Source of the DNA: a virus
Direction: 5' to 3' (one strand)
IMG/VR virus record: IMGVR_UViG_3300010354_007616
Span: 1-28,015 of that record
DNA length: 28,015 nt
The position numbers and the translations under genes are program-made. This document shows positions 1 to 24,609 of this stretch, one piece after another. Every line of letters starts with the position of its first letter. Position 1 is the first letter of the stretch. The notes below the pieces were generated by a model. The model saw only the letters and a program-made list of their open reading frames with translations, ran no database searches and had not been told where the DNA came from.

Positions 1-735
1 GAGAACGAGTTCCTGGGCAACCGGCAGGACATGTTGCGGCTGGTTGAGTTCATTAGGGACCGCGTCTCCACGTTCTTGGATTTGCCGCCGATCCGCCTGC
101 GTTTCAAGCCCTTCAAGATGGCGGATGACATGCCACGTACCCAGCTACTCATGCAGATGAGTCAAGCGGGTCTTGTGTCGCGCCGCACGATGTTGCAGTC
201 CATGGACTTCGACTACGCGACAGAACTCGAGATCATCCACAGCGAAATGCAGGACATCCAGAAGACCCAGCGACAACAGGCCATCGCGCAGGCGGAGACG
301 CAGGGTGAGGCCATGCTCGCCAGCACTAAGTACCAGATCGAAGCTCAGCAGGCGCAGCAACAAGCGGCCGCAGAGATGCAGGCCGCCCAGCCGCCTCCTC
401 CGGGCCCCGAGGGCGCCCCTCAAGGAGCTCCAGGGCAACCTGGCGAACCTGCACCGCAGGAGCAACCGCCAGAGCAGGCACCAGGCCAAGAAGCATCTCC
501 GACCGGCTCCCCCATGGTCGATTTATTCGCCCAGGCCAAGACGATCAGCAGCCAGCTAAAAAAGATGGATGAGGTTGAGCGGTACCAGGCTCTGGCCCGC
601 ATCAAGGCCCAGAATCCGGACCTTTACATGCTGGTCAACCAGGCCGTGGCTGGGGGGAACGGAAAAGACCGCCCCCTCCAGCCACTGCCTGAGAAGCTAC
701 CGCCCCGAGCTGGTGCTGCTAGAGCTCAGATCTAG
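1..735 (+). CDS. Portal protein, C-terminal part (5' end outside window)
   Basis: The reading frame is open from the first base, so the gene begins upstream; the in-frame ATG at 31 is internal. Portal proteins form the dodecameric ring at the capsid vertex through which DNA is packaged and ejected. The visible part has a helical region with the sequence RTQLLMQMSQAGLVSRRTML, typical of portal C-terminal domains, then a Gln/Glu/Ala-rich predicted coiled coil (about residues 75-130 of the visible part). A Pro/Gln/Gly-rich low-complexity linker and a short final helical segment follow. The assignment rests on this architecture and on terminase and prohead protease genes elsewhere in the window; the diagnostic stem and clip domains are off the left edge. 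The 3' end overlaps a convergent minus-strand gene by 39 bases. Another head-associated protein with a coiled-coil tail is the alternative. Confidence 0.62.
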   Translation, partial: ENEFLGNRQDMLRLVEFIRDRVSTFLDLPPIRLRFKPFKMADDMPRTQLLMQMSQAGLVSRRTMLQSMDFDYATELEIIHSEMQDIQKTQRQQAIAQAETQGEAMLASTKYQIEAQQAQQQAAAEMQAAQPPPPGPEGAPQGAPGQPGEPAPQEQPPEQAPGQEASPTGSPMVDLFAQAKTISSQLKKMDEVERYQALARIKAQNPDLYMLVNQAVAGGNGKDRPLQPLPEKLPPRAGAARAQI

Positions 736-927
736 CGCCACCAACATGACGGACTGGTTACCGCATCTCTGACACTTCCCTTCCTGATAGTGTGAGGACG
801 TGCGGTCATAGTGGCGGACGCAGCTAGGGCACGCCCAAATTGCGGTCCAATGTTCAAAGTGCCGGCAATCCCGGCAGTTTACGGGACGGGTGCACCACCC
901 GCCCTTTAGTTCACACGAGATCCTCAT
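697..927 (-). CDS. Small cysteine-rich (zinc-ribbon-like) protein, 76 aa
   Basis: No family is recognised with certainty. The 76-residue product has eight cysteines (C5, C12, C18, C21, C33, C36, C52, C55), six of them in three CxxC pairs, so it probably binds one or two zinc ions or another metal. The first CxxC is followed by R-H-F, resembling the CxxC-x-[YF]-F signature of two plus-strand proteins ending at 20529 and 21618. The ATG at 927 follows a good ribosome binding site: GGAG lies six bases upstream on the minus strand. The stop codon of the upstream 35-residue ORF directly abuts this ATG (TAGATG), so the two are probably translated as a coupled pair. The 3' end runs 39 bases into the opposite-strand portal gene. 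The regular cysteine spacing makes a chance frame unlikely. A regulatory or nucleic-acid-binding role is possible but not shown. Confidence 0.7.
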   Translation of the reverse strand: MRISCELKGGWCTRPVNCRDCRHFEHWTAIWACPSCVRHYDRTSSHYQEGKCQRCGNQSVMLVALDLSSSSTSSGR

Positions 928-1035: not shown

Positions 1036-1131
1036 GGTAGACTCCTCCGGGAGAGCGGATAAAGTTGGATAGATAGGGGCTCTCCATCATTCTTATACCC
1101 GTACGAAGACCCAAACTTGCCAGGAGGCCAG
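1036..1131. promoter_or_regulatory. Divergent intergenic region between the minus-strand pair and the RNA polymerase gene
   Basis: These 96 bases separate two divergent start codons and probably hold control signals for at least one direction. At the right edge AGGAGG (1122-1127) is the ribosome binding site for the polymerase gene, and at the left edge GGAGGAG serves the minus-strand ORF. A TATAAG hexamer on the minus strand (plus-strand complement at 1092-1097) is a possible -10 element for the minus-strand pair, but no convincing -35 lies at the usual distance. On the plus strand TAAAGT at 1060-1065 is an even weaker candidate. The TTTCAA element seen in the other two intergenic gaps is absent. 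If this gene is transcribed by a phage-specific enzyme, the promoter may not resemble a host one. Confidence 0.4.
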
Positions 1132-4100
1132 ATGTCAGTTCTAGACCCAGAGAGAGTCATGCGGACTCTCGAAGACCGGGTGGCGGACAAGATCAAATCG
1201 TTCTTCCCGTTGAAAGGAAAGAAGCAGACATTGATCGTTCGGGACGTGTACACCGGTAAGGATGTCGACGTTGACGACATTCATGAGCAGAAGCGCGCCA
1301 GACTCCGAGGTAAAACCTGGTCGACCGGTGTGTACGGGAACATCGACCTGGTCGACAACGCCACCGGCAAGGTGGTGGATAGCGCCGATGGCATCAAGTT
1401 GTTGAGCCTACCTAAGATTACGCGTCGCTACAGCTACATCATCGAGGGCAGCGAATACCAGGCCGACAACCAGTGGCGCCTGAAGTCTGGCGTTTACGCC
1501 CGCGAGAAAGCCAACGGGGAACTGGAGACTCAGTTCAACTTGGCCAAAGGGCGCGGGTTCCGTATGGGCTTTGAGCCGCCCAAGCGCCGGTTCCAGATCT
1601 CATACGGTACCGCCAATATCCCGTTGCTACCGGTTCTTCAGGCGTTGGGTGTCCCGGACGAGCAGATCCGAAAGTCCTGGGGAGATCAGGTGTACGCTGC
1701 GGCGGTGGCCCAGAAAGGTAAGGGGCAGCTCGTAAAGCTGGCCCGAGCGCTAGAGCCCTACAAACCCGTGGAGACAGACTCTGACGCAATCCCGATCATT
1801 CGGGAGGCGTACAACGCGAGTGTTCTGAGTCCCGACACTACCGCCATCACACTGGGAAAGCCGTTCGACAAGGTGACGGGCGACGCGCTTCTATCATCGG
1901 CTAATAAGTTGTTGGGCATCAGCCGAGGTGAGCAGGAGGTCGATAATCGCGACTCCCTGCGGTTCAAGGAGCTGTGGTCGATCGAGGACCACCTACCGGA
2001 GCGCATCCAGAACTCCTCCAAGCGGATCCGATTCAAGATGATGAACAATCTGGACCGCAAGGACCAGGTGCGGCAGATCGTCACCAACGACGTGTTCAAC
2101 GTGCCGATCAAGGCGTTCTTCACCAGCACGTCGCTGTCTCAGCAGACCAGCCAGGTCAACCCGATCGACATGATCGGCGGCTTCCTGCGCACCACCATCA
2201 TGGGTCCGGGCGGCATCTCGAACGAGAACGCGGTCGGCATGGACGCCAAGATGATCGACGCCAGCTTCCTGGGATTCGTGGACCCCGTCCACACCCCTGA
2301 GGGCGAGAAATCGGGTGTGACGGGGCACTTGTCTCTTGGTGTGTCCAAACGTGGCGTAGAGCCTACCATTCGGGTGTGGGACACCGCGGCAAGGCAGTAT
2401 GCCGACAAGACTCCCGCCGAGCTGGCCCGCAAGAACGTTGCCTTCTCCGACCAGTACGACTTCGAGAAGGGAAAGGATCCGACTCCGCGGGGCAAATTCT
2501 CTACGGTGATCCCGGCCAACGGGAGCGACCCCATCATGGTCGATCCTAAAGAAGTGGGCTTCATCCTGCAGTCGCCCAAGAGCATGTTTTCGATGACGGC
2601 CAATTTGGTTCCGTTCTTGGCGTCCGACCAGGCCAACCGTGCCGGGATGGCGACCCGCCACATGGAGCAGGCTATTTCGCTAAAGTACCGAGAAGAGCCC
2701 CTCATCCAGGCGGTCAGTGGAAACCCCCAGGAACGCTACGGCACGTGGGAGAAGGTGATGGGATCCCTGAATTCCCACGCCGCACCTGTGTCTGGAAAGG
2801 TTGAGTCGATCACAGAGGACTCGATCACGTTGGTGGATTCCGCGAAGAAGCGGCATCTTGTGCAACTGTACGACAACTTCCCGCTCAACGACGCCAAGGC
2901 CTTCATCTCCAGCACCCCGACCGTCAAGGTGGGGGACACTGTCGAGAAGGGTCAGTTGGTGGCCGACACCAACTTCACCAAGGGTGGGGCGCTCTCGATG
3001 GGCGTGAATCTCCGTATCGGCTTCCTACCCTACAAAGGGTTGGTGTTCGAGGACGGTATCGTGATCAGCGAGACCGGATCCAAGAAGCTGACCAGCGAGC
3101 ACCTCCACAAGTCCCGCGCCTACCTGGACAAGGAGATGTACCTGGGGCTCAAGAAGTTCCGCGCCAACTACCCGGGTGTCGTGACGGACGAGAACGCCAA
3201 GAAGCTGGATGAGGACGGTGTCATCAAGAAGGGGGAGATCGTTAACCCCGGCGACACCATCATGACGATCCTGCAGAAGTCGGACCCGTCCACCGAACAG
3301 CTCATGCTCAAGGGCATCCACAAGGCTCTGGTGCGTCCGTGGAAGAACAAGTCCGTCACCTGGGACAAGCCTTACTCAGGCGTCGTGACGGAGGTGGTGC
3401 GCAACGGCAAGGAAGTGCAGGCCTTCATCAAGACCGAAGAGCCCGCCGATATCGGCGATAAACTTTCTGGGCGCCACGGCAACAAAGGTGTCATCACGGC
3501 CGTGATCCCGGACGAGGAGATGCCGAGGGACAAGGACGGCAATCCTCTCGAGATCATCGTGAACCCCTCGGGCGTTCCGGGCCGCATCAACTTGGGTCAG
3601 GTGCTGGAGACCAGCCTCGCCAAGGTGGCGGACAAGAAGGGCGAACCATACGCGGTCGATAACTTCCAGCCCGTTGACGGCAAGAAGATCATTCAGGTCA
3701 GGGGTCACTGGCGTACCGTCAAGAAGGAGACGGGCGAGGTGACGCGCACATGGGTGGATCCGCATGAACGCGAGGTCGGCTACCACGAGCTCGTCAAGAA
3801 GGAGCTCCAGGCCAACAAGGTCAGTGAAACAGAGGAGCTGTTTGACGGCGTGACCGGTAAGAGCCTTGGACAGGTTCTGGTCGGCAAACAGTACATCATC
3901 AAGCTGATGCACCAGATCGACAAGAAGTTGTCGGCCCGGTCGCACGGCTACGGCAACGAGTACGACCAGAACCTCCAGCCCAAGGGCGGCGGTAAGGCGG
4001 GTGCGCAGCGATTCGGCGAGCTCGGCTACTACGCCATGCTGGCGCACGGATCCGTCCACAACCTCCGCGAGGCCGCCACCTACAAGGGCGACAAACAACA

Positions 4101-7100
4101 GGATGAGGTGTGGACGGCGCTGCAGGCGGGTGAACCCCTGCCCACTCCGAAGCCGTCGTTCGCCTACGAGAAGTTCTTGGCCTACCTAAACGCGGTGGGC
4201 GTGAACGTCGACAAGGAGGGCAACGAACTGATTGTCCGCCCCTTCACGGACCCTCAGATCCTGGCACAGTCCAACGGTGAGTTGACCGACGCCTCCAAGG
4301 TGGTGCGCGGTAAGGACCTGAAGCCCGAGAAGGGTGGCCTGTTTGATGAGGAGGTCACTGGAGGTCCCGGAGGTAAAAACTGGTCTCACATCAAGTTGGC
4401 GGGCAGAATCCCCAATCCGCTGTTTGAGAAGGCGATCGTGTCCCTGATGGGTCTTCGTCAGGCAGATTATGACGCGGTAATATCCGGCGAAAAGGGTTAC
4501 ACCAAGGACGGAAGATTGGTTGCTGCGGACGACGCCGCTGTCAGCGGCCCTGCCGCAATTGTCGAGCAGCTGAAAAGGATCAAGGTTGATGCGGAACTAG
4601 AGAAGGCGCTGGAGGAGGTCAAGACCGCCAGAAGGACGGACCTCGACAGAGCCAACAAAAAGGTAAAGTACCTGCGGGCGTTGAAGAACACGGGCATGTC
4701 CGCCGACCTCGCGTATGCGCTCGGCAACCTGCCGGTCCTTCCCCCGGTGTTCAGGCCTGTCAGCGCCATGGAGGGTGGGGACCTGAACATCGATGGCGTG
4801 AACATGCTGTACCGCGACGTGGCGCTCATCAACGCCAAGTTGAAGGAGGCGGAGGGCGTGCTCCCGGACGAGGCTGTGGCAGTGCTGCGTAAAGATCTGT
4901 ATGACGCCGTCGACGCGTTAATGGGGACACGCCCCGGCAGTGAAGAGGCCGTGATGGACGACGGCCAGCCCAAACCGCCGGGCATCCTCACGATCTTGTC
5001 GGGCAGATCCAGCCCCAAGAGCAGCTATTTCCATGACAAACTGATGGACCGGCCGCAGGACCTGTCCATGCGCTCCGTGATCGTACCGGACACTACTCTG
5101 AGCTTGGATGAGGTTGGGATTCCGCGTAAGGGGGCAATGAAGGTGTACCGCCCCTTCGTGGTGAGGGAGTTGGTGCGGATGGGTTACACGCCGCTCCAAG
5201 CTCGGGAAGAGGTGGAGAAGAAGACCGCGCTGGCCAACCGTGCTCTCGAAGTCGTGGTTTCCCAGCGACCCGTCCTCTTCAAGCGTGACCCTGTCTTGCA
5301 CAAGTTCGGGATCATGGCGTTCCGCCCCCGGCTGCACGACGAGCTGGCCATCCACATCCACCCACTGGTCACTGGCGGCTTCAACGCCGACTTTGATGGC
5401 GATGCCATGGCGATCTTCGTGCCGGTCTCTAACGAGGCGGTTCAGGAAGCCTACAAGATGCTGCCGTCCAACAATCTCTACAACGCCGCGACCGGCAAGG
5501 TGATGTACCAGCCTTCCATGGAGAGCCAGCTTGGTCTCTACCTGCTCACGCAGTTCGGCAAGGAGACGGGCAAGAAGTACTCGTCCTCCAAGCAGCTGAT
5601 GGACGACGTGAAGGACGGCAAAGCCCTCATGACCGATGTGGTGACGGTGGATGGCAAGAAGACTACCGCCGGAAGGTTGTCGTTCTACAACGTCCTACCG
5701 GATTCAGTGCGTGACGAGTCCTACCTGACGGACCCCGCACAGGTTATGGGTGACAAGAACCTGCAGAAAGTCATGAGAAAGGTAGCCACCAAGAATCCGG
5801 CGGAGTTCTCGACCGTTATCGACAAGATCAAAGACCTGGGATTTAACCACTCCTACGACATCGGCTTCTCCTTCGACCTGAACGACTTCGACACTCTGCG
5901 GGACGTGCGGGCCGAAGCCCTCAAGAAAGCCGACGCCGAGGTGTTGAAGATCCGAGCATCCAAGATGACGCCTGCTCAGCAAGAGGCTAAGATCGTGGAC
6001 GCGTACACGCAGGCCACCAAAGACATGAGCGTGGAGGCCAAGAAGCTCTTGGGAGCTAAGGGCAACAAACTGTTCGCGATGAATCAGGCAGGCGTCAAAC
6101 CCAGCTGGGCGCAGCTGCAGCAGATGGTCATGGCACCCATGCTGCTCCAGAACGCCAAGGGACGGACCATCCCGGTCCCTGTGACTCGGTCCTACGCAGA
6201 GGGGCTCGACACTTCTGGCTATTGGGTCGCCAGCTCGGGAGCCCGTAAGGGTCTGGTCGAGAAGGTGCTGCAAGTCCAGGAGCCGGGCGCACTGTCCAAG
6301 CAGATCGTCAACACGGTGGTGCCGTACGTCGTCACCAACCCGGACTGCGGCACCAAGAACGGCATCGCGCTGGACGTGGATGACTCGGATCTGGTGGACC
6401 GGTACGTCGCCAAGGACACGGCCCTAGAGAAGGGCGGGGTCATTCCAGCTGGCACCCTCATCACCCCCTCGGTGGTGGCGAACCTCAAGGCCAACAAGGT
6501 GTCCAGAATCGTTACCCGCTCGCCCATGAAGTGCGAGTCCGCCAAGGGGCTGTGTTCGAAATGCTACGGTCTATCGGATGGCGGCCAACCCCTGGCCATC
6601 GGCACCAACATCGGTGTGCTGGCTGGCCAGGCTATCGGTGAACGCGGTACGCAGTTGTCGATGAAGTCGTTCCATACCGGTGGTCTGGCTGGGTCAGGCA
6701 GCAGCGTGGTGGGCGGCTTGGAGCGTATCTCCGAGCTCCTGAAGATGCCGAAGATTCTGCCCAACATCGCCACCATTTCGAAGGCCAACGGCGACGTCAC
6801 CAAGATTGAGAAGAGTCCGGTTGGTGGTTGGGACGTATCAGTCGGTAATGAGACCCACTACGTGCCAGCTACCCGCAGTCTCTTGGTTCAAAAGGGTGAG
6901 AAGGTCAAGAAGGGACAGCAGCTCTCTAGTGGATCGATTGACCCGCGCGAACTGCTCGAACAGACCAACATGGACACGGTGCAGCGCTACATCTCGGACG
7001 AGATCCACAAGGTCTACGCCGCTGAAGGTATCAAGCGCCGCAACGTCGAGGTCGTGACCAAGGCGTTGACCAACCTGGGGCAGGTGGAAGATGCGGGTGA

Positions 7101-7398
7101 TAGCGACCAGTTCATCCGAGGAGACTTTATTTCACTGAACCACGCCCAAGCCCTTAACCGGGAGAAGCAGTACAAGAACCCAATCGTCGTTTCTCCAGTT
7201 CTTCGTGGAGCGGAGACTTTGGCCCTCGATCAGTCTGATGACTGGATGGCGCGTCTGCAGTATCGTAAGCTCAAGGAGACGTTGACCCGCGCCGCCAACG
7301 AAAACTGGAAGTCCAACATCCACGGGGTACACCCGACTCCCGCTATCGCGTATGGAGCGGAGTTTGGTCGCAACCTCACGGGCGAGGGCCCGTACTGA
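1132..7398 (+). CDS. Single-chain fusion of RNA polymerase beta and beta-prime subunits
   Basis: DNA-directed RNA polymerase catalytic core, 2088 residues, beta followed by beta-prime. Beta signatures: HTPEG at 387-391, PFLASDQANR at 494-503, FED near 639-641, and DKLSGRHGNK at 776-785, whose K777 and K785 match E. coli beta K1065 and K1073. Beta-prime begins near residue 1030 and reaches GLFDEEVTG at about 1069 with essentially no linker. It contains the RSVIV block near 1314, the catalytic loop NADFDGD at 1418-1424 (D1420, D1422, D1424 bind magnesium), the bridge helix GARKG at 1703-1707, a four-cysteine zinc site (C1739, C1801, C1808, C1811) and the trigger loop SMKSFH with M1844 and H1848. 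The first beta-prime zinc ribbon and large insertions are missing. The ATG at 1132 is chosen because AGGAGG stands four bases before it; a TTG 15 bases upstream lacks a site. No alpha, omega or sigma gene is in view. Host-independent phage transcription is the inferred role. Confidence 0.96.
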   Translation: MSVLDPERVMRTLEDRVADKIKSFFPLKGKKQTLIVRDVYTGKDVDVDDIHEQKRARLRGKTWSTGVYGNIDLVDNATGKVVDSADGIKLLSLPKITRRYSYIIEGSEYQADNQWRLKSGVYAREKANGELETQFNLAKGRGFRMGFEPPKRRFQISYGTANIPLLPVLQALGVPDEQIRKSWGDQVYAAAVAQKGKGQLVKLARALEPYKPVETDSDAIPIIREAYNASVLSPDTTAITLGKPFDKVTGDALLSSANKLLGISRGEQEVDNRDSLRFKELWSIEDHLPERIQNSSKRIRFKMMNNLDRKDQVRQIVTNDVFNVPIKAFFTSTSLSQQTSQVNPIDMIGGFLRTTIMGPGGISNENAVGMDAKMIDASFLGFVDPVHTPEGEKSGVTGHLSLGVSKRGVEPTIRVWDTAARQYADKTPAELARKNVAFSDQYDFEKGKDPTPRGKFSTVIPANGSDPIMVDPKEVGFILQSPKSMFSMTANLVPFLASDQANRAGMATRHMEQAISLKYREEPLIQAVSGNPQERYGTWEKVMGSLNSHAAPVSGKVESITEDSITLVDSAKKRHLVQLYDNFPLNDAKAFISSTPTVKVGDTVEKGQLVADTNFTKGGALSMGVNLRIGFLPYKGLVFEDGIVISETGSKKLTSEHLHKSRAYLDKEMYLGLKKFRANYPGVVTDENAKKLDEDGVIKKGEIVNPGDTIMTILQKSDPSTEQLMLKGIHKALVRPWKNKSVTWDKPYSGVVTEVVRNGKEVQAFIKTEEPADIGDKLSGRHGNKGVITAVIPDEEMPRDKDGNPLEIIVNPSGVPGRINLGQVLETSLAKVADKKGEPYAVDNFQPVDGKKIIQVRGHWRTVKKETGEVTRTWVDPHEREVGYHELVKKELQANKVSETEELFDGVTGKSLGQVLVGKQYIIKLMHQIDKKLSARSHGYGNEYDQNLQPKGGGKAGAQRFGELGYYAMLAHGSVHNLREAATYKGDKQQDEVWTALQAGEPLPTPKPSFAYEKFLAYLNAVGVNVDKEGNELIVRPFTDPQILAQSNGELTDASKVVRGKDLKPEKGGLFDEEVTGGPGGKNWSHIKLAGRIPNPLFEKAIVSLMGLRQADYDAVISGEKGYTKDGRLVAADDAAVSGPAAIVEQLKRIKVDAELEKALEEVKTARRTDLDRANKKVKYLRALKNTGMSADLAYALGNLPVLPPVFRPVSAMEGGDLNIDGVNMLYRDVALINAKLKEAEGVLPDEAVAVLRKDLYDAVDALMGTRPGSEEAVMDDGQPKPPGILTILSGRSSPKSSYFHDKLMDRPQDLSMRSVIVPDTTLSLDEVGIPRKGAMKVYRPFVVRELVRMGYTPLQAREEVEKKTALANRALEVVVSQRPVLFKRDPVLHKFGIMAFRPRLHDELAIHIHPLVTGGFNADFDGDAMAIFVPVSNEAVQEAYKMLPSNNLYNAATGKVMYQPSMESQLGLYLLTQFGKETGKKYSSSKQLMDDVKDGKALMTDVVTVDGKKTTAGRLSFYNVLPDSVRDESYLTDPAQVMGDKNLQKVMRKVATKNPAEFSTVIDKIKDLGFNHSYDIGFSFDLNDFDTLRDVRAEALKKADAEVLKIRASKMTPAQQEAKIVDAYTQATKDMSVEAKKLLGAKGNKLFAMNQAGVKPSWAQLQQMVMAPMLLQNAKGRTIPVPVTRSYAEGLDTSGYWVASSGARKGLVEKVLQVQEPGALSKQIVNTVVPYVVTNPDCGTKNGIALDVDDSDLVDRYVAKDTALEKGGVIPAGTLITPSVVANLKANKVSRIVTRSPMKCESAKGLCSKCYGLSDGGQPLAIGTNIGVLAGQAIGERGTQLSMKSFHTGGLAGSGSSVVGGLERISELLKMPKILPNIATISKANGDVTKIEKSPVGGWDVSVGNETHYVPATRSLLVQKGEKVKKGQQLSSGSIDPRELLEQTNMDTVQRYISDEIHKVYAAEGIKRRNVEVVTKALTNLGQVEDAGDSDQFIRGDFISLNHAQALNREKQYKNPIVVSPVLRGAETLALDQSDDWMARLQYRKLKETLTRAANENWKSNIHGVHPTPAIAYGAEFGRNLTGEGPY

Positions 7399-8562: not shown

Positions 8563-11500
8563 ATGACTGAGACTGAACTCAAGGCAGCACTGCTATCGGC
8601 CTACCGAACCTACAACGGTAAGGATGAACAGTCCGTCCGCCAGGCGCTGTTCAGTATGTTCCGCTCCATGAGCGCGGGTCTGTTTGATGACATGCCTGAC
8701 GGAGAAGTGGTGGGCGGCGTGACCACCGATGCGGAGAGAACGCGGCTACAACAGAAACTTCGGTACGACCAGTTCTCCCTCACCCGGGAGGTCGCAGAAG
8801 CCTTTATTGACGAAGTCACGGAAGGCGCGTTCATCAACCTGGTCCGCAAAGTAGCGGGTCTCGACTCCACAGTCGTCACCTGCACCATGCTGGTGAACGT
8901 CGGCAACATCTCGATCTCTACCGAGAACGTCGACGGTATCGCCACGCCCGCCGCATGGGTACAGCAAAACTACGCCGCCAAGTCGGTCGTCACCCACACC
9001 GTAAACAACAAACTCCAAACCTGGTACGCGGTCCGCACCACCAGCACGGTTCCTGGGTCCGCCCCTACCCCCGCGCAAGAGGAGGCCGGCAAGTCAGCGG
9101 ATTGGGTGTCCCATGAGGTCAAGGCAATCCCCCGGACCGTCCGCTTCAAGTTGACGGGAACGCCCGCGCTGAACGACCAGATCCGCCTGACGATTGGAAA
9201 CCAGACCTACACCTACACGTACGCGGCGACGGACTCATCAGTCAACGACTTGGCCGCGGGTGTGACGGCTTTGGCGGTGGCGGACCCCAACTTCACGGTC
9301 ACCAATTCGACCGACGCGCTGAAGGGCCTGAACGCAGGGTTTGCGTCCGGTGTGTGGCAGACCGCCCTCACGTCGATGGGTATCTTGGCGTGGTCGAACG
9401 CGCAGGCCTACCCCATCAACTCGGTCGTCTTCCATAACGGACAGATCTGGACCAACAACCAGCAGACCGTCGCGGGTGAGGAGCCGGGCGTATCGAACAA
9501 GTGGATCCTGTCATCGTATGGTGTGGCGGGCGGTGATCTGGCCGGCAGCTACCCCAACCCCACCCTAGCCGTCATCACGGCCGCCACCACCAAGGGGACG
9601 GCCGACAAGACTCCGACCATCACGATCGATACGAAAGGCCGGGTCACCACACTGACGGAACAGTCGATCTCAATCACGCCGTCTCAAGCGGGCCTCGGTA
9701 ACGTCGACAACGTTCAGCAGATCCCCATGTCCTACTTGGACACGGACGGCACATTAGCGGCTAATAGCGACACCAAGGTGGCGACCCAAAAGGCCACCAA
9801 GACGTACGCCGACACCAAGATCCCGAAGTCACTGGCCACCCAGGCTGACCAATCCCTCTACTCCACCGCCGCCAACACGTGGGCCGCGTTCCCGTTTACG
9901 CTGCAGTGGCGCAACTTCGTCAGCACCACCAAGGCGGCGTGGGACGAGACCAACGGCATCCTAAAGTCCTTTGCCTTTCAGGTGGACACCGCACCCGCGG
10001 TCGCCCAGACCACCGGCATCGGTAAGTTGATCTGGAACGACACGTACGGCGCGATCGAGACGTTGCTGAAGGGCGGGAACGCAGACCTGTTGGTTGGACA
10101 GCAACTCTTCACGCGCGTCCGTAACGCACAGGGTGTCCAGATCACTAAGGGCCAGGCCGTATATCTGTTCGGAGCAACCGGGGTTCACAGTGAGGTCAAA
10201 CTCGCCAACGCCAACTCCGAGACCACGGCGGCACGTACCCTCGGCATCGTGGTGGAGACGATCAACAACAACAACGAAGGATTCGTCATTACCAATGGAA
10301 TCCTTCGGAACGTCAACACCGATCACCTAACTGAGGGGGCACTGGTGTGGCTGGATACGGTGGATGGGCAGACCACTTCCACCAGGCCTACTGCCCCTAA
10401 CCACGGCGTATTTCTTGGTATGTGCGTCCGCAAGCACCAGAACGTGGGCGTGCTGTACGTGACGGTAGTGAACGGACTGGAACTAAAGGAGCTGCACGAC
10501 GTCCTGATCAACGGGATTGACGCCGGCCACATCTTGATCTGGAACAACACCACCAAGGTGTGGGAAAACAAGGCGCAGTCAAACTTGTCGCTCACGTCCT
10601 CTCAGGTTGGTCTCGGCAACGTCACCAATGTGGCGCAACTCCCCCTCTCGTACCTCAGTACTGATGGAACGTTGGGCGACAACTCCGACACCAAAGTACC
10701 GTCCCAAAAGGCTGTCAAAACTTACGTCGATACGGCGGTAACGGGTCTGCTGGATTTCAAGGGTTCGACCGATTGCTCAGGCAACCCCAACTACCCAGCC
10801 GCCAGTAAGGGCGACGCCTATATCGTCAGCGTGGCCGGAAAGATTGGCGGTGCGGCAGGCGTGTCGGTGGACATCGGTGACGTGTACCTGGCGACCGCCG
10901 ACAATGCGGGAGGAACGCAGGCGGCTATAGGTGCCTCTTGGGCGGTCTTGGAGCACAATCTGGTTGGCGCTCTATTAGCAGCTAATAATCTCTCCGATCT
11001 GACCAACACGACAACTGCACGTGCGAATCTGGGCCTCGGCAACGTCGATAACGTGCAGCAACTGCCGATGTCGTATCTGGATACTGACGGGGCGTTGACC
11101 GCCAACCTAGACACCAAGGTGGCGAGTCAGAAGGCCACCAAAACGTACGCAGACACCAAGATCGCCAAAACCGGCGGCACAATGACCGGGAACTTGCTGG
11201 TGAGCGGCGCGAAAATCGGTGTCGGCACAGCATCTCCGGGCGTCGGCATCCATGTGGCCGGAACAACCACAACCGACATCATTCGATCGGACATCGGCTA
11301 CGACGTCAATCCAGTGCTCGCCCCAACAACACTGTCTGGCGTCGTGCTGGCTGTTGCTGGCAATGTGGACATCGGAAACCACCGATACTACGTGACGTTT
11401 GTCACCGCTCTGGGAGAAACCCAGTTCTACTTTGGCCCTGGTAACGTGGGTGTGTCGCTGACGACTTCTGCCGGCAATCAACAAGTTCGCTTGACGATCC

Positions 11501-18199: not shown

Positions 18200-19972
18200 A
18201 TGAGCCTGCTGCGCTTTATGGAAAAGCACGCTCAGACCCCGCCTCCCGCACCGCAGGAGCGCGGGAACGACGTCGCGACTATGAGGCCAGAATTCAAACC
18301 GCTACCGCACCAAGTATCGGCGATTGAAAAATTATTCGATAATAAGGGTCGCATGATCCTGGCCCACCAGATGGGGTCCGGAAAGACCGTTACATCAATC
18401 TACGGTTTCGAGAAAATGAGGCAGGCCGGTAAGGCTCAGAAAGCCCTCGTGGTAGTGCCGGCCGGTCTACGCGAAAACTTTGCCCGCAGCGGTGTTGAGA
18501 AGTTTACCACCTCTTCGCTGCAAGTCGTCGGTTCCTCAGAAGAGAAGAACCGGCTCAAGGACTACGTCCGTCCGGACGAGATCCGCCCTGACAAGACCTA
18601 CACGATCGTATCGTACGAGCAGCTGCGCCGGGACCCTGTCGGCATGATGCAGCGTACCGGCGCCGACACCATCATCGCGGACGAGTTCCACAAGACCCGC
18701 AACGACCAGTCCCAGATCTACCGGTCCATGATGCAGGCTCGGCAGTTTGCCACCAACTTCATCGGGATCACGGGGTCGTTGATCAACAACGAGCCCGGTG
18801 AGATCGCCAAACTTCTAAACCTATCCGAGGGCGGGCCGCCGGTCTCTCCCAGGGACTTCGTGAGCCGTTACACCCGTACCATCGGCACGACTGAGGGGTT
18901 TGGTGGCGGAAAGAAGCGGGTGATCGGGATCAACAACCCGGAAGAATTTGCTCTCAAGGTCGTGCCGCGCGTAGATTACTTTGAGACCGGTGACATCCCG
19001 GGCGCCGCCATGCCCCGCAAGGACGTCAAGAATGTGTATGTTCCGATGTCAAAGGAACAGTACCACCTGTACCAGCTGGCCCTCAACAAACTGGGCCCAG
19101 TCCAGGAGTACGTTACTCGTCGGGATCCCAACATCACGCTGAAGGAAGCGGATAGGCTGTTTACGCAGCTGACCCAAGCACGCCAGATCAGCAACTCTGT
19201 GGCCATGGGCCGTAAGGACGTATCTATCGAGCAATCGGCAGAGAGGACTCCCAAGGTCCACAAGGTCTTGCAAGATACGGTTCAGCACCTGCAGGATAAG
19301 CCCGACAACTCGGTAGTCCTGTACAGTAACCTGATCCGAGGCGGTGTTGACGTATTGTCCGCGGGACTCAAGAAAGCGGGGATTCCGCACGCCCTCTTCA
19401 TCGGAGCAGGCACTGAAGTGGGGGACGGTAAGGTCACCAACGTGAGCCGCTCTCAAGGCGTGGAAGACTTCAAGGCCGGTAAGGTCAAGGTGATCGTGCT
19501 GTCCGGTGCGGGGGCTGAGGGTCTAGATCTCAAAAACGCCACCGCCTTCTATTCGCTCGACGGGCACTTCAATCCTGAGCGAATCATGCAAGCAGAGGCC
19601 CGCGCCCGCCGCCTAGGTGGCCAAGCGCAGCGACCTCCGGAACAGCGGGTAGTTGATGTGCGCCGATACCAATCGGTCGTACCGTCCTCTGAGCAGCCGG
19701 GCGTGTTTGGCAAGATGCTGGGTAAGAAGACCCCCCAGACTACCGACGAGTGGGCCTACAATGTGGCGGGCCGGAAGTTCAGAACCTCCAGGCAGTTCTA
19801 CGACGTCCTGCACAAGCCCCACAAGTATGTCCGCAAAGAGTACTACACTCGGAGAGACGGAACCCGCGCGGTGCGGTATCTTTACGCGCAGCAAGTAAAC
19901 CAACCTCGCGGTCTGTTTGCTAAGCTGTTCGGGCCCAGAGAGCCTAAAGCTCCACCACCAGTTACCTTTTGA
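18200..19972 (+). CDS. SNF2-family (superfamily 2) ATPase/helicase-like protein, 590 aa
   Basis: ATP-driven double-stranded DNA translocase of the SNF2 type. Conserved motifs appear in order: a Q-like PLPHQVSAIEKL near residues 35-46; Walker A HQMGSGKT (56-63, K62); LVVVPAGL near 91; Walker B-type DEFH (161-164); ITGSLINN near 190; a second RecA domain with VVLYSNLIRGG near 370; VLSGAGAEGLDLKNA near 435; and the arginine-finger motif QAEARARR at 464-471. The C-terminus is basic and may bind DNA. The family includes RapA, which recycles RNA polymerase, and phage helicases. A RapA-like partnership with the polymerase at 1132-7398 is attractive but inferred. The gene sits among morphogenesis genes and its N-terminus carries an MEKHAQ sequence like the K-x-A motif of its neighbours, so virion packaging is also possible. 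ATG at 18200, GAGG about nine bases upstream. Confidence 0.92.
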   Translation: MSLLRFMEKHAQTPPPAPQERGNDVATMRPEFKPLPHQVSAIEKLFDNKGRMILAHQMGSGKTVTSIYGFEKMRQAGKAQKALVVVPAGLRENFARSGVEKFTTSSLQVVGSSEEKNRLKDYVRPDEIRPDKTYTIVSYEQLRRDPVGMMQRTGADTIIADEFHKTRNDQSQIYRSMMQARQFATNFIGITGSLINNEPGEIAKLLNLSEGGPPVSPRDFVSRYTRTIGTTEGFGGGKKRVIGINNPEEFALKVVPRVDYFETGDIPGAAMPRKDVKNVYVPMSKEQYHLYQLALNKLGPVQEYVTRRDPNITLKEADRLFTQLTQARQISNSVAMGRKDVSIEQSAERTPKVHKVLQDTVQHLQDKPDNSVVLYSNLIRGGVDVLSAGLKKAGIPHALFIGAGTEVGDGKVTNVSRSQGVEDFKAGKVKVIVLSGAGAEGLDLKNATAFYSLDGHFNPERIMQAEARARRLGGQAQRPPEQRVVDVRRYQSVVPSSEQPGVFGKMLGKKTPQTTDEWAYNVAGRKFRTSRQFYDVLHKPHKYVRKEYYTRRDGTRAVRYLYAQQVNQPRGLFAKLFGPREPKAPPPVTF

Positions 19973-20551: not shown

Positions 20552-21145
20552 ATGTTTAACAACAAAGGTAAGGCCAAGCTGTTGGCCCGGTTCGCCAAGG
20601 AGAAGAAGGCCGACGGCATGATGTCGGAGGTCGAGGACGAGGGCGAAGCGATGGAGTCGGAGGGCGGCGGCATGGATGCCCCAGGCATGCTGTGCCAGTT
20701 GCTGGGCACGCTGTTGGCCATGCGTCAGAACTACCATTCGAGTCATTGGCAGATCAGCGGTCCGACCTTCTACGGGGACCATCTTCTGTTTGAGAAGCTG
20801 TACGGGTCGGTGAGCGAAGATATCGACACGTTGGCGGAGAAGATGGTGGCGAAGTACGGTTCTCAGATGGTGAGCGCGGTCAAGTTGAGCCACATCCAGG
20901 CTCAGGTGGTCTCCGATCTAGCGCAGCAGCCGGACCCATACCACAGGGGTTTGGAATCTGAGAAGGCCTTGCAGGCGTTGACCAAGAATGTGTACCACGG
21001 GCTCAAGGAGTCGGGACAGCTGTCTCTCGGAATGGACGACTTCTTGATGGCCATGGCCAACACACACGAGACCAACGAGTACCTGCTGGGGCAGCGCGTG
21101 GCTGGTGGGCCTTCGATGGGGCCGATGGCACACAAGGCAATGTAG
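20552..21145 (+). CDS. Dps/ferritin-like protein, 197 aa
   Basis: Dps proteins are ferritin-fold dodecamers that oxidise and store iron and can protect DNA. After a charged extension of about 45 residues (lysine-rich, then acidic), the sequence shows the Dps core: NYHSSHW, then GPTFYGDHLLFEKLY, then EDIDTLAEK. Spacing reproduces the inter-subunit ferroxidase set of E. coli Dps (H51, H63, D67, D78, E82) as H65, H77, E81, D92 and E96, with glutamate replacing one aspartate. The C-terminal helix (FLMAMANTHETNEYLLGQRV) also fits. Most residues for iron oxidation are therefore kept, although activity is not proven. AGGAG stands six bases before the ATG. The gene lies in a virion-type run, so the protein may be packaged with DNA or protect it in the infected cell. 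The extension is unusual and might target the protein to the capsid. Confidence 0.85.
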   Translation: MFNNKGKAKLLARFAKEKKADGMMSEVEDEGEAMESEGGGMDAPGMLCQLLGTLLAMRQNYHSSHWQISGPTFYGDHLLFEKLYGSVSEDIDTLAEKMVAKYGSQMVSAVKLSHIQAQVVSDLAQQPDPYHRGLESEKALQALTKNVYHGLKESGQLSLGMDDFLMAMANTHETNEYLLGQRVAGGPSMGPMAHKAM

Positions 21146-22741: not shown

Positions 22742-22943
22742 TTGTGACGGACCACCTCTGAAAGGTTAGGCGGCATCCCGGTAGGATCGTCTGTGCGATG
22801 GTCTTGACGGCGGTCTTCTCCGGCTGCGTCAACGGCCACCGTATATGCAGCACTATCGAGGAGCCTTGATCCTCGTAGCGATCCAGTGTATTGCCGATCG
22901 CTCGGGACAACGTTTCCACGATCTCGGAGTACCGCGTGTTCAA
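22734..22943 (-). CDS. Lone minus-strand gene, unknown function, 69 aa
   Basis: Not recognised. The frame fills the space between the 376-residue gene and the terminase gene, overlapping each by eight bases (the terminase overlap assumes its GTG start). The protein reads as a plausible small alpha/beta domain: a helix (RYSEIVETLSRAIGNTLDRY), a strand (SSIVLHIRW), a second helix (EKTAVKTIAQTIL) and a final strand (CRLTFQRWSVTIM). Its codons end mostly in G or C like the other genes, which a chance frame need not do. The proposed start is TTG at 22943 with GGTGG three bases upstream, a rather short spacing; a shorter form is possible. It would be transcribed toward the 376-residue gene. Confidence 0.55.
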   Translation of the reverse strand: MNTRYSEIVETLSRAIGNTLDRYEDQGSSIVLHIRWPLTQPEKTAVKTIAQTILPGCRLTFQRWSVTIM

Positions 22944-24609
22944 GGTCCACCCCCGTCAGTCCAAGGGATCCCACAGGACGTCCTTGGAATTGTTTCCGTC
23001 TGAGTTCACGTCCCATATGATGCGGATGCCGCACGAGGGGGTGCTGGCCCCATTCTCGTTTACGGGTCGTGAATACCTAGTCCCCATCTACGACACCCCG
23101 CACCCGCGCACGCTGTTGATGTTCGCCCGCCAGTCCGAGAAGTCAACGACTCTCGGCAACAAGATCCTGGCACTGTCGTGCCTGCGCCACCACTTCAAGT
23201 CCCTGTTTGTGAGCCCGTCTCAACAGCAGACCGAGGTATTCAGTCGTGACAAACTGTCGTCCCCGCTCAACCTGTCGGAAGACCTGCGCACGTTCTTGGA
23301 CAAGAACGCCAACAACGTGCTGTTCAAGCGGTTCATCACCGACTCCAGCGTGACGTTGAGGTACGCGTTCCTGCACGCCGACCGTACCCGTGGTATCCCG
23401 GCAGACGCACTGTTCCTGGACGAGATCCAGGACATCCTGACGGACGTGATCCCGATCATCGAGGAGTGCATGTCGCACTCCCCCTACCAGCTTATGACGT
23501 ACTCCGGCACCCCCAAATCACTCGATAATACGATCGCCTACTACTGGAACACCTTCTCGACCCAGAATGAATGGATGATCCCGTGCGACCGATGCGGTGG
23601 GGCGGACTATCGGCATTGGGACGTGATCGGCTACGACAATATCGGCCCAAACGGATTGATCTGCAGTAGGTGTAAACGGGATATCGACCCACGTCATCCC
23701 GAAGCACAGTGGGTATCGCAGCGTTCGGCGCGTTGGCTGCAGACGCCAGACGGGATTCCGTTTGAGGGATATCGAATCCCGCAGATTCTGACCAACTGGG
23801 TGAACTGGCCCAAGATCTTGGACAAGAAGAGCCGGTACGGAAAGGCACAGTTCTACAACGAGGTGTTGGCGCTACCGTATGACTCCGGCGACAAACCCAT
23901 CAAACGGGAGACGCTGGCGGAACAGTGCGGCAGTATCTCGTTCGCGGACTCCGTCAACTTCGCGGGTAGGTCCACCCTGTACATGGGGATCGACTGGGGC
24001 GGCACCACCAACGCGGGTGGAGGCGAGGAGGGGAGCGTCAGGAAGTCCGCACCCGCCAGCAGCTACACCGTGGTGTCGATCGGTGGCTACCTGGGCGGTA
24101 AGTTTCAGTACATCTACTTCAAGCGGTTTGAGGGTGAGGAAGCGGTCATGGACAACATGCTGCCCGTCATCATCCAGCTGGTTGACCGATACAAGATCTC
24201 GATCATCGGGACCGACTATGGTGGTGGCCTCCATCCTAATGATCGTCTGATCCGACAGTTTGGTATCCGCCGGGTAGCCCGCTACCAATACGTCAACACC
24301 CGCAAGATCTACTTCAACAAGGACCTGCACCACTGGATGGTCAACCGGACCGAGGCGCTCATGGCCCTCATCAACGCCATCAACCGTAAGGACGAGATCC
24401 GGTTCCCCACATTTGGTGACTGGGAGTTCCCTTTCGCGCAGGACCTGCTGTCAGTCTTCACCGAGTACAACAGCTCCAACACCCAGATGATCATCACGAA
24501 GGCACCGGGTTCCTCCGACGACACCATGCACTCCATGATGTACTGCTGGCTGGCCAGTATGATCGAACACCCACGGCCAGACATCCTGGCGGCTGACCGA
24601 TCCCCCTAG
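22936..24609 (+). CDS. terL: Terminase large subunit (DNA-packaging ATPase and nuclease)
   Basis: Motor that cuts concatemeric phage DNA and pumps it through the portal. Numbered from the GTG at 22936: Walker A ARQSEKST with K69; Walker B LFLDEIQD with D162 and E163; coupling motif SGTP near 195; a zinc-ribbon-like insertion with C217, C220, C243 and C246; then an RNase-H-fold nuclease with D353 (GIDWGG), D427 (GTDYGG) and D528/D529. The zinc ribbon between ATPase and nuclease, followed by FEGYRIPQI and FYNEVLALP, resembles the GpA/lambda-type branch of terminases. The GTG is chosen because GGAG stands six bases before it and conserved-looking sequence starts before the first ATG (23017), which lacks a ribosome site. 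A TTG at 22891 is also in frame. No small subunit gene is recognised nearby. Confidence 0.94.
   Translation: MFKVHPRQSKGSHRTSLELFPSEFTSHMMRMPHEGVLAPFSFTGREYLVPIYDTPHPRTLLMFARQSEKSTTLGNKILALSCLRHHFKSLFVSPSQQQTEVFSRDKLSSPLNLSEDLRTFLDKNANNVLFKRFITDSSVTLRYAFLHADRTRGIPADALFLDEIQDILTDVIPIIEECMSHSPYQLMTYSGTPKSLDNTIAYYWNTFSTQNEWMIPCDRCGGADYRHWDVIGYDNIGPNGLICSRCKRDIDPRHPEAQWVSQRSARWLQTPDGIPFEGYRIPQILTNWVNWPKILDKKSRYGKAQFYNEVLALPYDSGDKPIKRETLAEQCGSISFADSVNFAGRSTLYMGIDWGGTTNAGGGEEGSVRKSAPASSYTVVSIGGYLGGKFQYIYFKRFEGEEAVMDNMLPVIIQLVDRYKISIIGTDYGGGLHPNDRLIRQFGIRRVARYQYVNTRKIYFNKDLHHWMVNRTEALMALINAINRKDEIRFPTFGDWEFPFAQDLLSVFTEYNSSNTQMIITKAPGSSDDTMHSMMYCWLASMIEHPRPDILAADRSP

Follow-up and report, generated by a model that had tools for sequence, protein, structure and literature searches.

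The window considered here is a stretch of 28,015 nucleotides, positions 1 to 28,015 of the virus record IMGVR_UViG_3300010354_007616 in IMG/VR, itself a fragment, in which the beta and beta-prime subunits of RNA polymerase are encoded as a single chain by one open reading frame (Table 1; translation might also begin earlier, at a TTG at 1117). Rpb2 domains 3, 6 and 7 of Pfam (residues 339–993) are followed in this protein by Rpb1 domains 1, 2, 3 and 5 (residues 1197–1876), these ranges being the best-matching stretches. Rpb2 domain 6 (2.8e-52) and Rpb1 domain 2 (1.3e-27) score over the curated cut-offs, Rpb2_7, Rpb1_1 and Rpb1_3 score under them, and the catalytic DxDGD loop is present. Model TIGR02386 gives 554 bits on the beta-prime half, under its cut-off of 963.5, and the best matches among PHROGs are two separate families, phrog_24349 for the beta half and phrog_25354 for the beta-prime half, neither with an assigned function. 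Judged by its sequence, the protein is a member of the DNA-directed RNA polymerase beta/beta-prime superfamily, and the one-chain phage polymerase is a real and widespread form of this known enzyme.

The original prediction held that the C-terminal block of beta is followed directly by the N-terminal block of beta-prime, with no linker and with the passage near residue 1030. The reading frame, the order of Pfam domains, the alignments and the structural models all bear this out. An AlphaFold model of residues 501–1550, built with 59 sequences, has a mean predicted local distance difference test score (pLDDT) of 87.5 and a predicted template modelling score (pTM) of 0.76. The two predicted strands around the joint fit a hairpin, by strand assignment rather than by pairing. 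Compared with bacterial and plastid beta chains (50 matches listed), this model gives Z scores of 29.4–35.6 and root-mean-square deviations (rmsd) of 2.3–3.7; bacterial beta chains align with it to about residue 1034–1036 (B. subtilis 6wvj, Z 30.4, rmsd 3.7), and some chains of Thermus and Mycobacterium on to residues 1048–1049. The model of the beta-prime half (residues 1031–2088, 52 sequences, pLDDT 84.6, pTM 0.76) matches bacterial beta-prime with Z 32.8–34.6 and rmsd 4.0–5.5 over 952–1025 residues (50 matches listed), and residue 1031 falls on residue 18 of E. coli beta-prime (4yln, Z 33.8, rmsd 5.4, 1025 residues). With beta reaching to about 1034–1049, and residue 1031 already equivalent to position 18 of the E. 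coli beta-prime chain, a linker would not fit between the two. On the evidence of the models, some 17 residues at the start of beta-prime (in E. coli numbering), together with any tail of beta, would have been lost in the fusion, with no linker gained.

It had also been predicted that every catalytic element is present. The catalytic parts, among them both barrels and the catalytic aspartates, are indeed kept, while the N-terminal zinc ribbon of beta-prime, itself not catalytic, is deleted. The block GDKLSGRHGNKG contains K777 and K785, which we take to be the catalytic lysines, the block GERGTQLSMKSFHTGG is presumably the trigger loop by name, and the SGARKG block is also kept in the alignment with bacterial beta-prime. 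Across the clade of relatives described below, DFDGD or DYDGD was found in 120 of the 125 contigs or records whose frame reaches the loop (the other five carry a large insert there), and the pattern of the second zinc site in 119 of 122. The pattern of the first zinc ribbon was found in 0 of 133 members of the clade, versus 18 of 18 bacterial controls. Compared with Staphylococcus beta, the phage protein is without the N-terminal 28 residues, internal stretches of 30, 66 and 13 residues and a C-terminal tail of 38 residues, and has one extra stretch of 35 residues. In 26 one-chain polymerases there are inserts of about 305–521 amino acids (Table 1). Because the insert of L043, which splits the catalytic loop, matches LAGLIDADG and, weakly, intein models, the 26 inserts are probably inteins.

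Table 1. Features of the window, polymerase first, with the evidence for each; the last row lists relatives whose polymerases carry inserts.
Feature	Position	Strand	Evidence or remark
Single-chain RNA polymerase, beta and beta-prime fused	1132..7398	+	One frame, 2088 amino acids, ATG start, no internal stop
Beta half, residues 1-1030	1132..4221	+	PF04565, PF00562, PF04560; phrog_24349; alignment with bacterial beta
Beta barrel block GDKLSGRHGNKG	3454..3489	+	K777 and K785 invariant in two alignments
Sealed junction	4201..4242	+	Strand 1024-1029, two residues, strand 1032-1037; DSSP of predicted model, pLDDT about 89
Beta-prime half, residues 1031-2088	4222..7395	+	PF04997, PF00623, PF04983, PF04998; TIGR02386; model compared with bacterial beta-prime
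Deletion site of beta-prime N-terminal zinc ribbon (about 34 amino acids)	4384..4389	+	Alignment gap
Catalytic NADFDGD loop, residues 1418-1424	5383..5403	+	Alignments
Second zinc site, cysteines 1739, 1801, 1808, 1811	6346..6564	+	Alignment with bacterial beta-prime
Presumed trigger-loop block GERGTQLSMKSFHTGG	6637..6684	+	Alignment with bacterial beta-prime
Promoter-like motif GGTATAAGAATGATG, divergent from polymerase gene	1085..1099	-	About 40 nucleotides before polymerase start
Portal protein, C-terminal part	1..735	+	phrog_64, phrog_2833, weak; clusters with genes upstream of polymerase in relatives
Small cysteine-rich frame, 76 amino acids, between portal and polymerase	697-927	-	Zn_ribbon_SprT match under cut-off
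1801-amino-acid protein	8563-13968	+	Weak tail-collar-fibre match
SNF2-type helicase	18200..19972	+	PF00176, phrog_62; candidate companion of the polymerase
Ferritin/Dps-like protein	20552-21145	+	PF00210, phrog_3636
Terminase large subunit, GpA type	22891..24609	+	phrog_675, PF05876
Insert carriers			L038, L039, L042, L043, L045, L047, L049-L052, L054, L055, L065, L072, L073, L101, L126, L127, L129, L130, L137, L139, L153, L158-L160

A first scan for relatives gave one partial protein and five full-length one-chain proteins of 62–93% identity; two of the five come from contigs of about 180 kb. Two profile scans then yielded 78 and 80 loci, only the 80 best of 135 and the 80 best of 163 relatives having been kept, a choice that favours near kin. 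The nearest relative, L010, is another metagenome contig with a 93% identical protein. The sorted set consists of 137 contigs or records (134 from IMG/VR and three isolates) and leaves out 21 repeat contigs, four bacterial loci and L006, a phage with separate subunits. A search of phage records gave 65 that matched, of which 40 were listed and 11 of these inspected. Four loci filed as phages (L005, L007, L008 and L009) look like pieces of bacterial chromosomes with separate rpoB and rpoC; they were excluded from the phage counts, and L005, L007 and L009 served as bacteria in the trees. Contigs of the lineage reach 198 kb, and the isolates measure 181–188 kb.

The joint is visible in 133 of the 137 contigs or records and sealed in all 133, four fragments stopping short of it; the profile matches flanking the joint are equally spaced in 132 of these and one residue further apart in the remaining one. 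No boundary cut was seen in the frame in 104 of the 137, of which 94 are complete one-chain frames of 2031–3249 amino acids and 10 are ended by the edge of the locus; the 94 fall into 73 clusters at 95% identity, 62 at 80% and 27 at 60%. Other members have the chain cut elsewhere. Nine are cut after the catalytic barrel, giving proteins of about 1525 and 610 amino acids, and include Salmonella phage Arash and Vibrio phages D69 and D181; this cut lies approximately where cyanobacterial rpoC1 and rpoC2 separate, judging from model ranges. Eighteen are cut about 95–115 residues into beta-prime, and 11 of these also show the cut after the barrel. Two of the 137 are incomplete. No member of the clade was found cut at the ancestral beta/beta-prime boundary, also among the loci of a scan for the catalytic codons (NADFDGD), which yielded at least 120 stretches with 80 loci given.

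A scan with the beta-prime of Rhizobium phage alone gave no relative, and one with two such sequences gave six loci. Together with the codon scan these make 86 loci, of which 85 have a motif-bearing frame, some plainly by chance. Hidden Markov models detected the sealed joint in 25 of the 86, at least five of which (L299, L321, L330, L349 and L360) are contigs of the first set, and L312 and L314 were added by eye; the remainder are fragments short of the joint, other polymerase types or chance matches. L284 and L285 have another architecture, with a beta-prime of about 900 amino acids ahead of beta. In L314 (2-4123), the nearest thing to an exception, a break lies about 40 residues ahead of an intact joint, and L312 (5736-12722, minus strand) encodes a 2328-amino-acid one-chain member with a diverged joint region. 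In Vibrio phage D181 (L003, 4905-10473), a homing endonuclease gene lies within beta.

Two trivial explanations of the single chain deserve consideration. An artefact of assembly or a hidden frameshift might be suggested by L013 (7240-10506), where the beta half lies in two frames of 302 and 763 amino acids owing to an intron, a frameshift or an error. However, the 94 complete frames in one chain, which form 73 clusters at 95% identity, speak against this. Because L010 encodes a 93% identical protein in a separate contig and 93 further frames are complete, no stop or frameshift is hidden near position 4200, where the original prediction had placed a possible assembly error; the chance of an artefact is negligible, and it was rejected. 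Some bacteria carry fused subunits, and NCBIfam models of such fusions are among the matches, so one could imagine that the phage recently took up an rpoB-rpoC pair, fused or neighbouring, from a bacterium. These models, NF007172 and NF011417, which presumably describe the fused RpoB-RpoC of Helicobacter and Wolbachia, nevertheless score only about a tenth of their cut-offs on the phage protein (581.2 versus 5372 bits and 500.6 versus 4632). Among the best 80 of 595 bacterial beta-prime matches, identity to the phage is 26–31%, and the phyla represented include Actinomycetota, Bacillota, Chloroflexota, Atribacterota, Patescibacteria and others. When each half was given a tree of its own, as the original prediction had proposed, 18 bacteria fell on one side (support 99–100) and 34 phages of the clade on the other. 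Recent capture was rejected on these grounds as extremely improbable.

The trees contain 53 rows for the beta half (52 without the long-branched phage GN1) and 52 for the beta-prime half. They were built quickly with the Shimodaira-Hasegawa-like approximate likelihood-ratio test (SH-aLRT) as the only support, carry long-branch warnings, hold bacteria and phages but no archaea or eukaryotes, and neither root the clade nor date the fusion. Support is 100 for a side made up of groups II and III, 68–79 for group II by itself, and 63–93 (beta) or 99 (beta-prime) for group I.

Bacterial alpha (PF01000) was detected in none of the 24 long records, versus 13 of the 14 control genomes. Sigma region 2 scores over the cut-off in 13 of the 24, including all eight of groups II and III. 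A divergent sigma-like protein, reached via weak matches, was found in 25 of 28 clade records, and in all 25 the best match is on the same strand as the polymerase (strand read by hand). Its assignment is based on a Sigma70_r3 match over the cut-off in L254, a match to phrog_351 (RNA polymerase sigma factor) at 5e-14 and a region 2 match over the cut-off in the homologue on contig G013; region 4 gives only weak matches at these genes. In a set of 50,697 phage records, this protein matches at E ≤ 1e-5 only four, Arash, D69, D181 and Vibrio phage D148, and these are the isolates with the sealed polymerase among the records inspected (D148 by a tblastn row only).

A promoter-like motif is the other companion of the polymerase gene. 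The sequence GGTATAAG occurs in 44 of the 88 gaps between portal and polymerase (the window and 87 relatives), always on the minus strand by hand count. When 8-mers were counted upstream of genes with no motif supplied, GGTATAAG ranked first in two contigs; each contig has 15 copies, nine of them intergenic according to the gene calls (intergenic DNA makes up 5–6%) and seven within 200 nucleotides upstream of a gene on the same strand. The extended form GGTATAAGN5TG has 12 and 11 sites in these contigs versus simulated means of 0.52 and 0.55 (40 simulations each). By hand sums, 199 such sites are present in 21 of the 28 clade records, about 42 per Mb, versus six for the reversed pattern; in six bacterial genomes (about 35.5 Mb) the motif occurs 11 times and the reversed pattern 37 times, and Yersinia phage GN1 has none. 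As many as 173 of the 199 sites lie opposite the polymerase strand (binomial p about 8e-28, for contigs that are related and so not independent). A minus-35 box of the form GC[AG].AA, 16–20 nucleotides before GGTATAAG, was seen at two sites and one site, too rarely to be claimed. Of the 19 sites in Arash, 18 are directed to the minus strand, and 11 of these 18 lie within 60 nucleotides of an annotated 5-prime end, a zone comprising 11% of positions; four of the 18 lie beyond the gene list used, and two of these fit by eye. The minus strand of Arash holds replication, nucleotide-metabolism and tRNA genes, the plus strand the main structural genes, the polymerase and sigma.

The neighbours of the polymerase agree with the prediction of a phage-encoded gene among structural genes: a weak portal match lies upstream, the terminase and a head protease lie downstream, and there is a weak baseplate match as well. 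In 87 of the 137 contigs or records a portal gene ends no more than 2.5 kb upstream of the polymerase; in 21 it is further upstream, 12 have more than 3 kb of room but no portal was seen, and in 17 the matter cannot be told. Frames like the small cysteine-rich one on the minus strand were found in many window-like relatives; its product might conceivably replace the missing zinc ribbon in trans. A SNF2-type helicase tracks the polymerase genes in one group of jumbo phages, according to the available text of PMC7824862. In Arash, a helicase directly follows the gene for the C-terminal part of beta-prime.

In our opinion, the fused protein is probably a one-polypeptide core that assembles without alpha, has its own sigma and uses GGTATAAGN5TG promoters, packaging in the virion being the least certain part. 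Alpha is described in the accessible part of PMC10770324 as the assembly platform for beta and beta-prime; the covalent joint would take over this job of the alpha dimer in uniting the subunits, and the core would assemble alone. Together with the sigma-like partner it may form a phage holoenzyme reading GGTATAAGN5TG, and such promoters would drive the block on the opposite strand, which in Arash comprises the replication, nucleotide-metabolism and tRNA genes. Because the polymerase and sigma genes sit with the structural genes, the enzyme may be made late and packaged, then injected to start the next infection; this step, drawn from gene position and motif strand, is speculative. Taken as a whole, the scenario is put forward tentatively, at somewhat less than even chances: a large tailed-phage lineage, set apart from the group called mReC by its capsid family, would have an alpha-free one-chain core with a sigma of its own; produced together with the structural genes, this system would be packaged, injected and read GGTATAAGN5TG on the opposite strand. 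After the sealing the gene boundaries would have moved, so that cuts now fall behind the catalytic barrel or some 100 residues inside beta-prime.

A number of observations weigh against parts of this interpretation. The N5TG extension was added by eye afterwards, and the 8-mer alone is only about twice as frequent over whole contigs as in simulations (15 versus means of 6.7 and 6.5, maximum 13). At least two GGTATAAG sites seem by eye to lie inside tRNA genes. GGTATAAGN5TG is absent from seven of the 28 records, and two of the 21 motif-bearing records have no bias to the opposite strand. No sigma-like protein was seen in three records: the window, the contig nearest to it (54 kb) and a contig of 143 kb. 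The single plus-strand motif of Arash precedes gp9 and the sigma gene gp10, and because a same-strand motif stands before this operon, sigma is not simply late. The annotators of Arash mark gp8 as a structural protein and not the polymerase gp206, which speaks mildly against packaging. Since the phages of groups II and III cut the chain, full union is not essential, and only the beta/beta-prime joint is kept. Finally, the sigma and the motif could serve the host polymerase.

The same facts allow other explanations. It is possible, at somewhat less than even chances, that the enzyme is of the non-virion kind, produced in the course of infection for middle or late phage genes and left unpackaged. 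The same-strand motif before the sigma operon of Arash and the annotation of gp206 agree with this, and phiKZ-type phages have one virion and one non-virion enzyme, as stated in the available text of PMC7598289. The portal gene just upstream in 87 of the 137 and the position of most motifs on the strand where Arash holds its replication and metabolism genes speak, however, against this explanation. It is rather unlikely that the sigma-like protein and the motif belong to the host RNA polymerase, the fused enzyme using other signals. The late sigma of T4 works with the host RNA polymerase, and GGTATAAGN5TG resembles the late promoters of T4; a second sigma with region 2 over the cut-off in all eight records of groups II and III would also suit such an arrangement. 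Against it stand the presence of the sigma-like protein in 25 of the 28 clade records and its matches to just the four sealed-polymerase isolates in the large set of phage records. It is very improbable that the protein survives as a structural relic which has no polymerase activity: its place among structural genes and the loss of the first zinc ribbon could be so explained, but the DFDGD or DYDGD loop is kept wherever a large insert does not occupy it, and the lysines, the zinc site and the trigger-loop block are conserved.

If the one-polypeptide core is as proposed, the role of alpha beyond joining beta and beta-prime becomes testable with one purified protein, and the isolated relatives (Arash, Vibrio phage D69) make the question of the virion testable too. 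The sigma-like protein and the motif could form an independent transcription system. The cuts at new places illustrate how boundaries between subunits can shift in evolution, and the lineage may be missed or misfiled where a survey looks for beta and beta-prime as separate genes. Relative to the original prediction, the joint common to the whole clade, the other cut sites, the sigma-like protein and the promoter-like motif are new. The literature searched, which did not extend to subscription journals, bioRxiv and supplements, contained no description of the one-chain polymerase of this lineage.

Several known systems are comparable with that of the window. The fused enzymes of Helicobacter and Wolbachia are cellular and work with alpha. 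They have beta and then beta-prime in one chain, as here, but their models have 2890 and 2839 positions versus 2088 residues in the phage.

Like the window, the mReC phages are tailed phages that encode beta and beta-prime and carry the NADxDGD motif, in mReC as NADFDGD (PMC7481178). The mReC group is characterised by a branch separate from bacteria, archaea, eukaryotes and their large viruses; the present clade lies apart from the 18 bacteria used in both half-trees, which carry long-branch warnings. In the main text of that paper, a fusion is named only for crAssphage, all eight capsids detected among 97 contigs are PF07068, and of 31 terminases with a VOG match 27 belong to one family (VOG01069), with 17 in PF03237 and four outside. 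In the present clade, PF07068 was found in 0 of 27 records, including the window, which is a fragment with no identified capsid gene. As a positive control, nine phages with unjoined beta-prime gave four matches over the cut-off (Yersinia phage GN1 and Rhizobium phage Y65 among them), one at E ≤ 0.001 and four without a match; 14 control genomes gave none. The terminase of the window also differs, matching only PF05876 in Pfam at E ≤ 0.01, with phrog_675 first, and not PF03237. Because PF07068 is found in 0 of 27 records here and mReC capsids belong to PF07068, we infer that the clade may be a second lineage beside mReC by capsid family; overlap with the 97 published contigs is possible. A phage polymerase called RNAP1 is placed at the base of the mReC clade and under diversifying selection in the available text of PMC10159854.

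Enzymes of the phiKZ/AR9 type of jumbo phages are likewise akin to cellular polymerases and without alpha, but according to the accessible parts of the papers their core consists of at least four or five unjoined polypeptides, whereas that of the window is one frame (PMC7598289, PMC13282480, PMC7824862). In P23-45 the polymerase is in the virion (PMC7481178, PMC10770324, as far as their available text goes). In crAss-like phages both barrels are in one chain, as here, but the main text of PMC7481178 reports no match to the beta/beta-prime models used there, whereas the window is matched by cellular models directly. Also comparable are the isolates Arash, D69, D181 and D148, about 30–32% identical to the window (D148 from tblastn rows). 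All four have a sigma-like protein of the same kind as the relatives of the window, and Arash, D69 and D181 share with the window the sealed joint and a polymerase behind a portal-like gene, but differ from it in that the C-terminal part of beta-prime is a separate gene.

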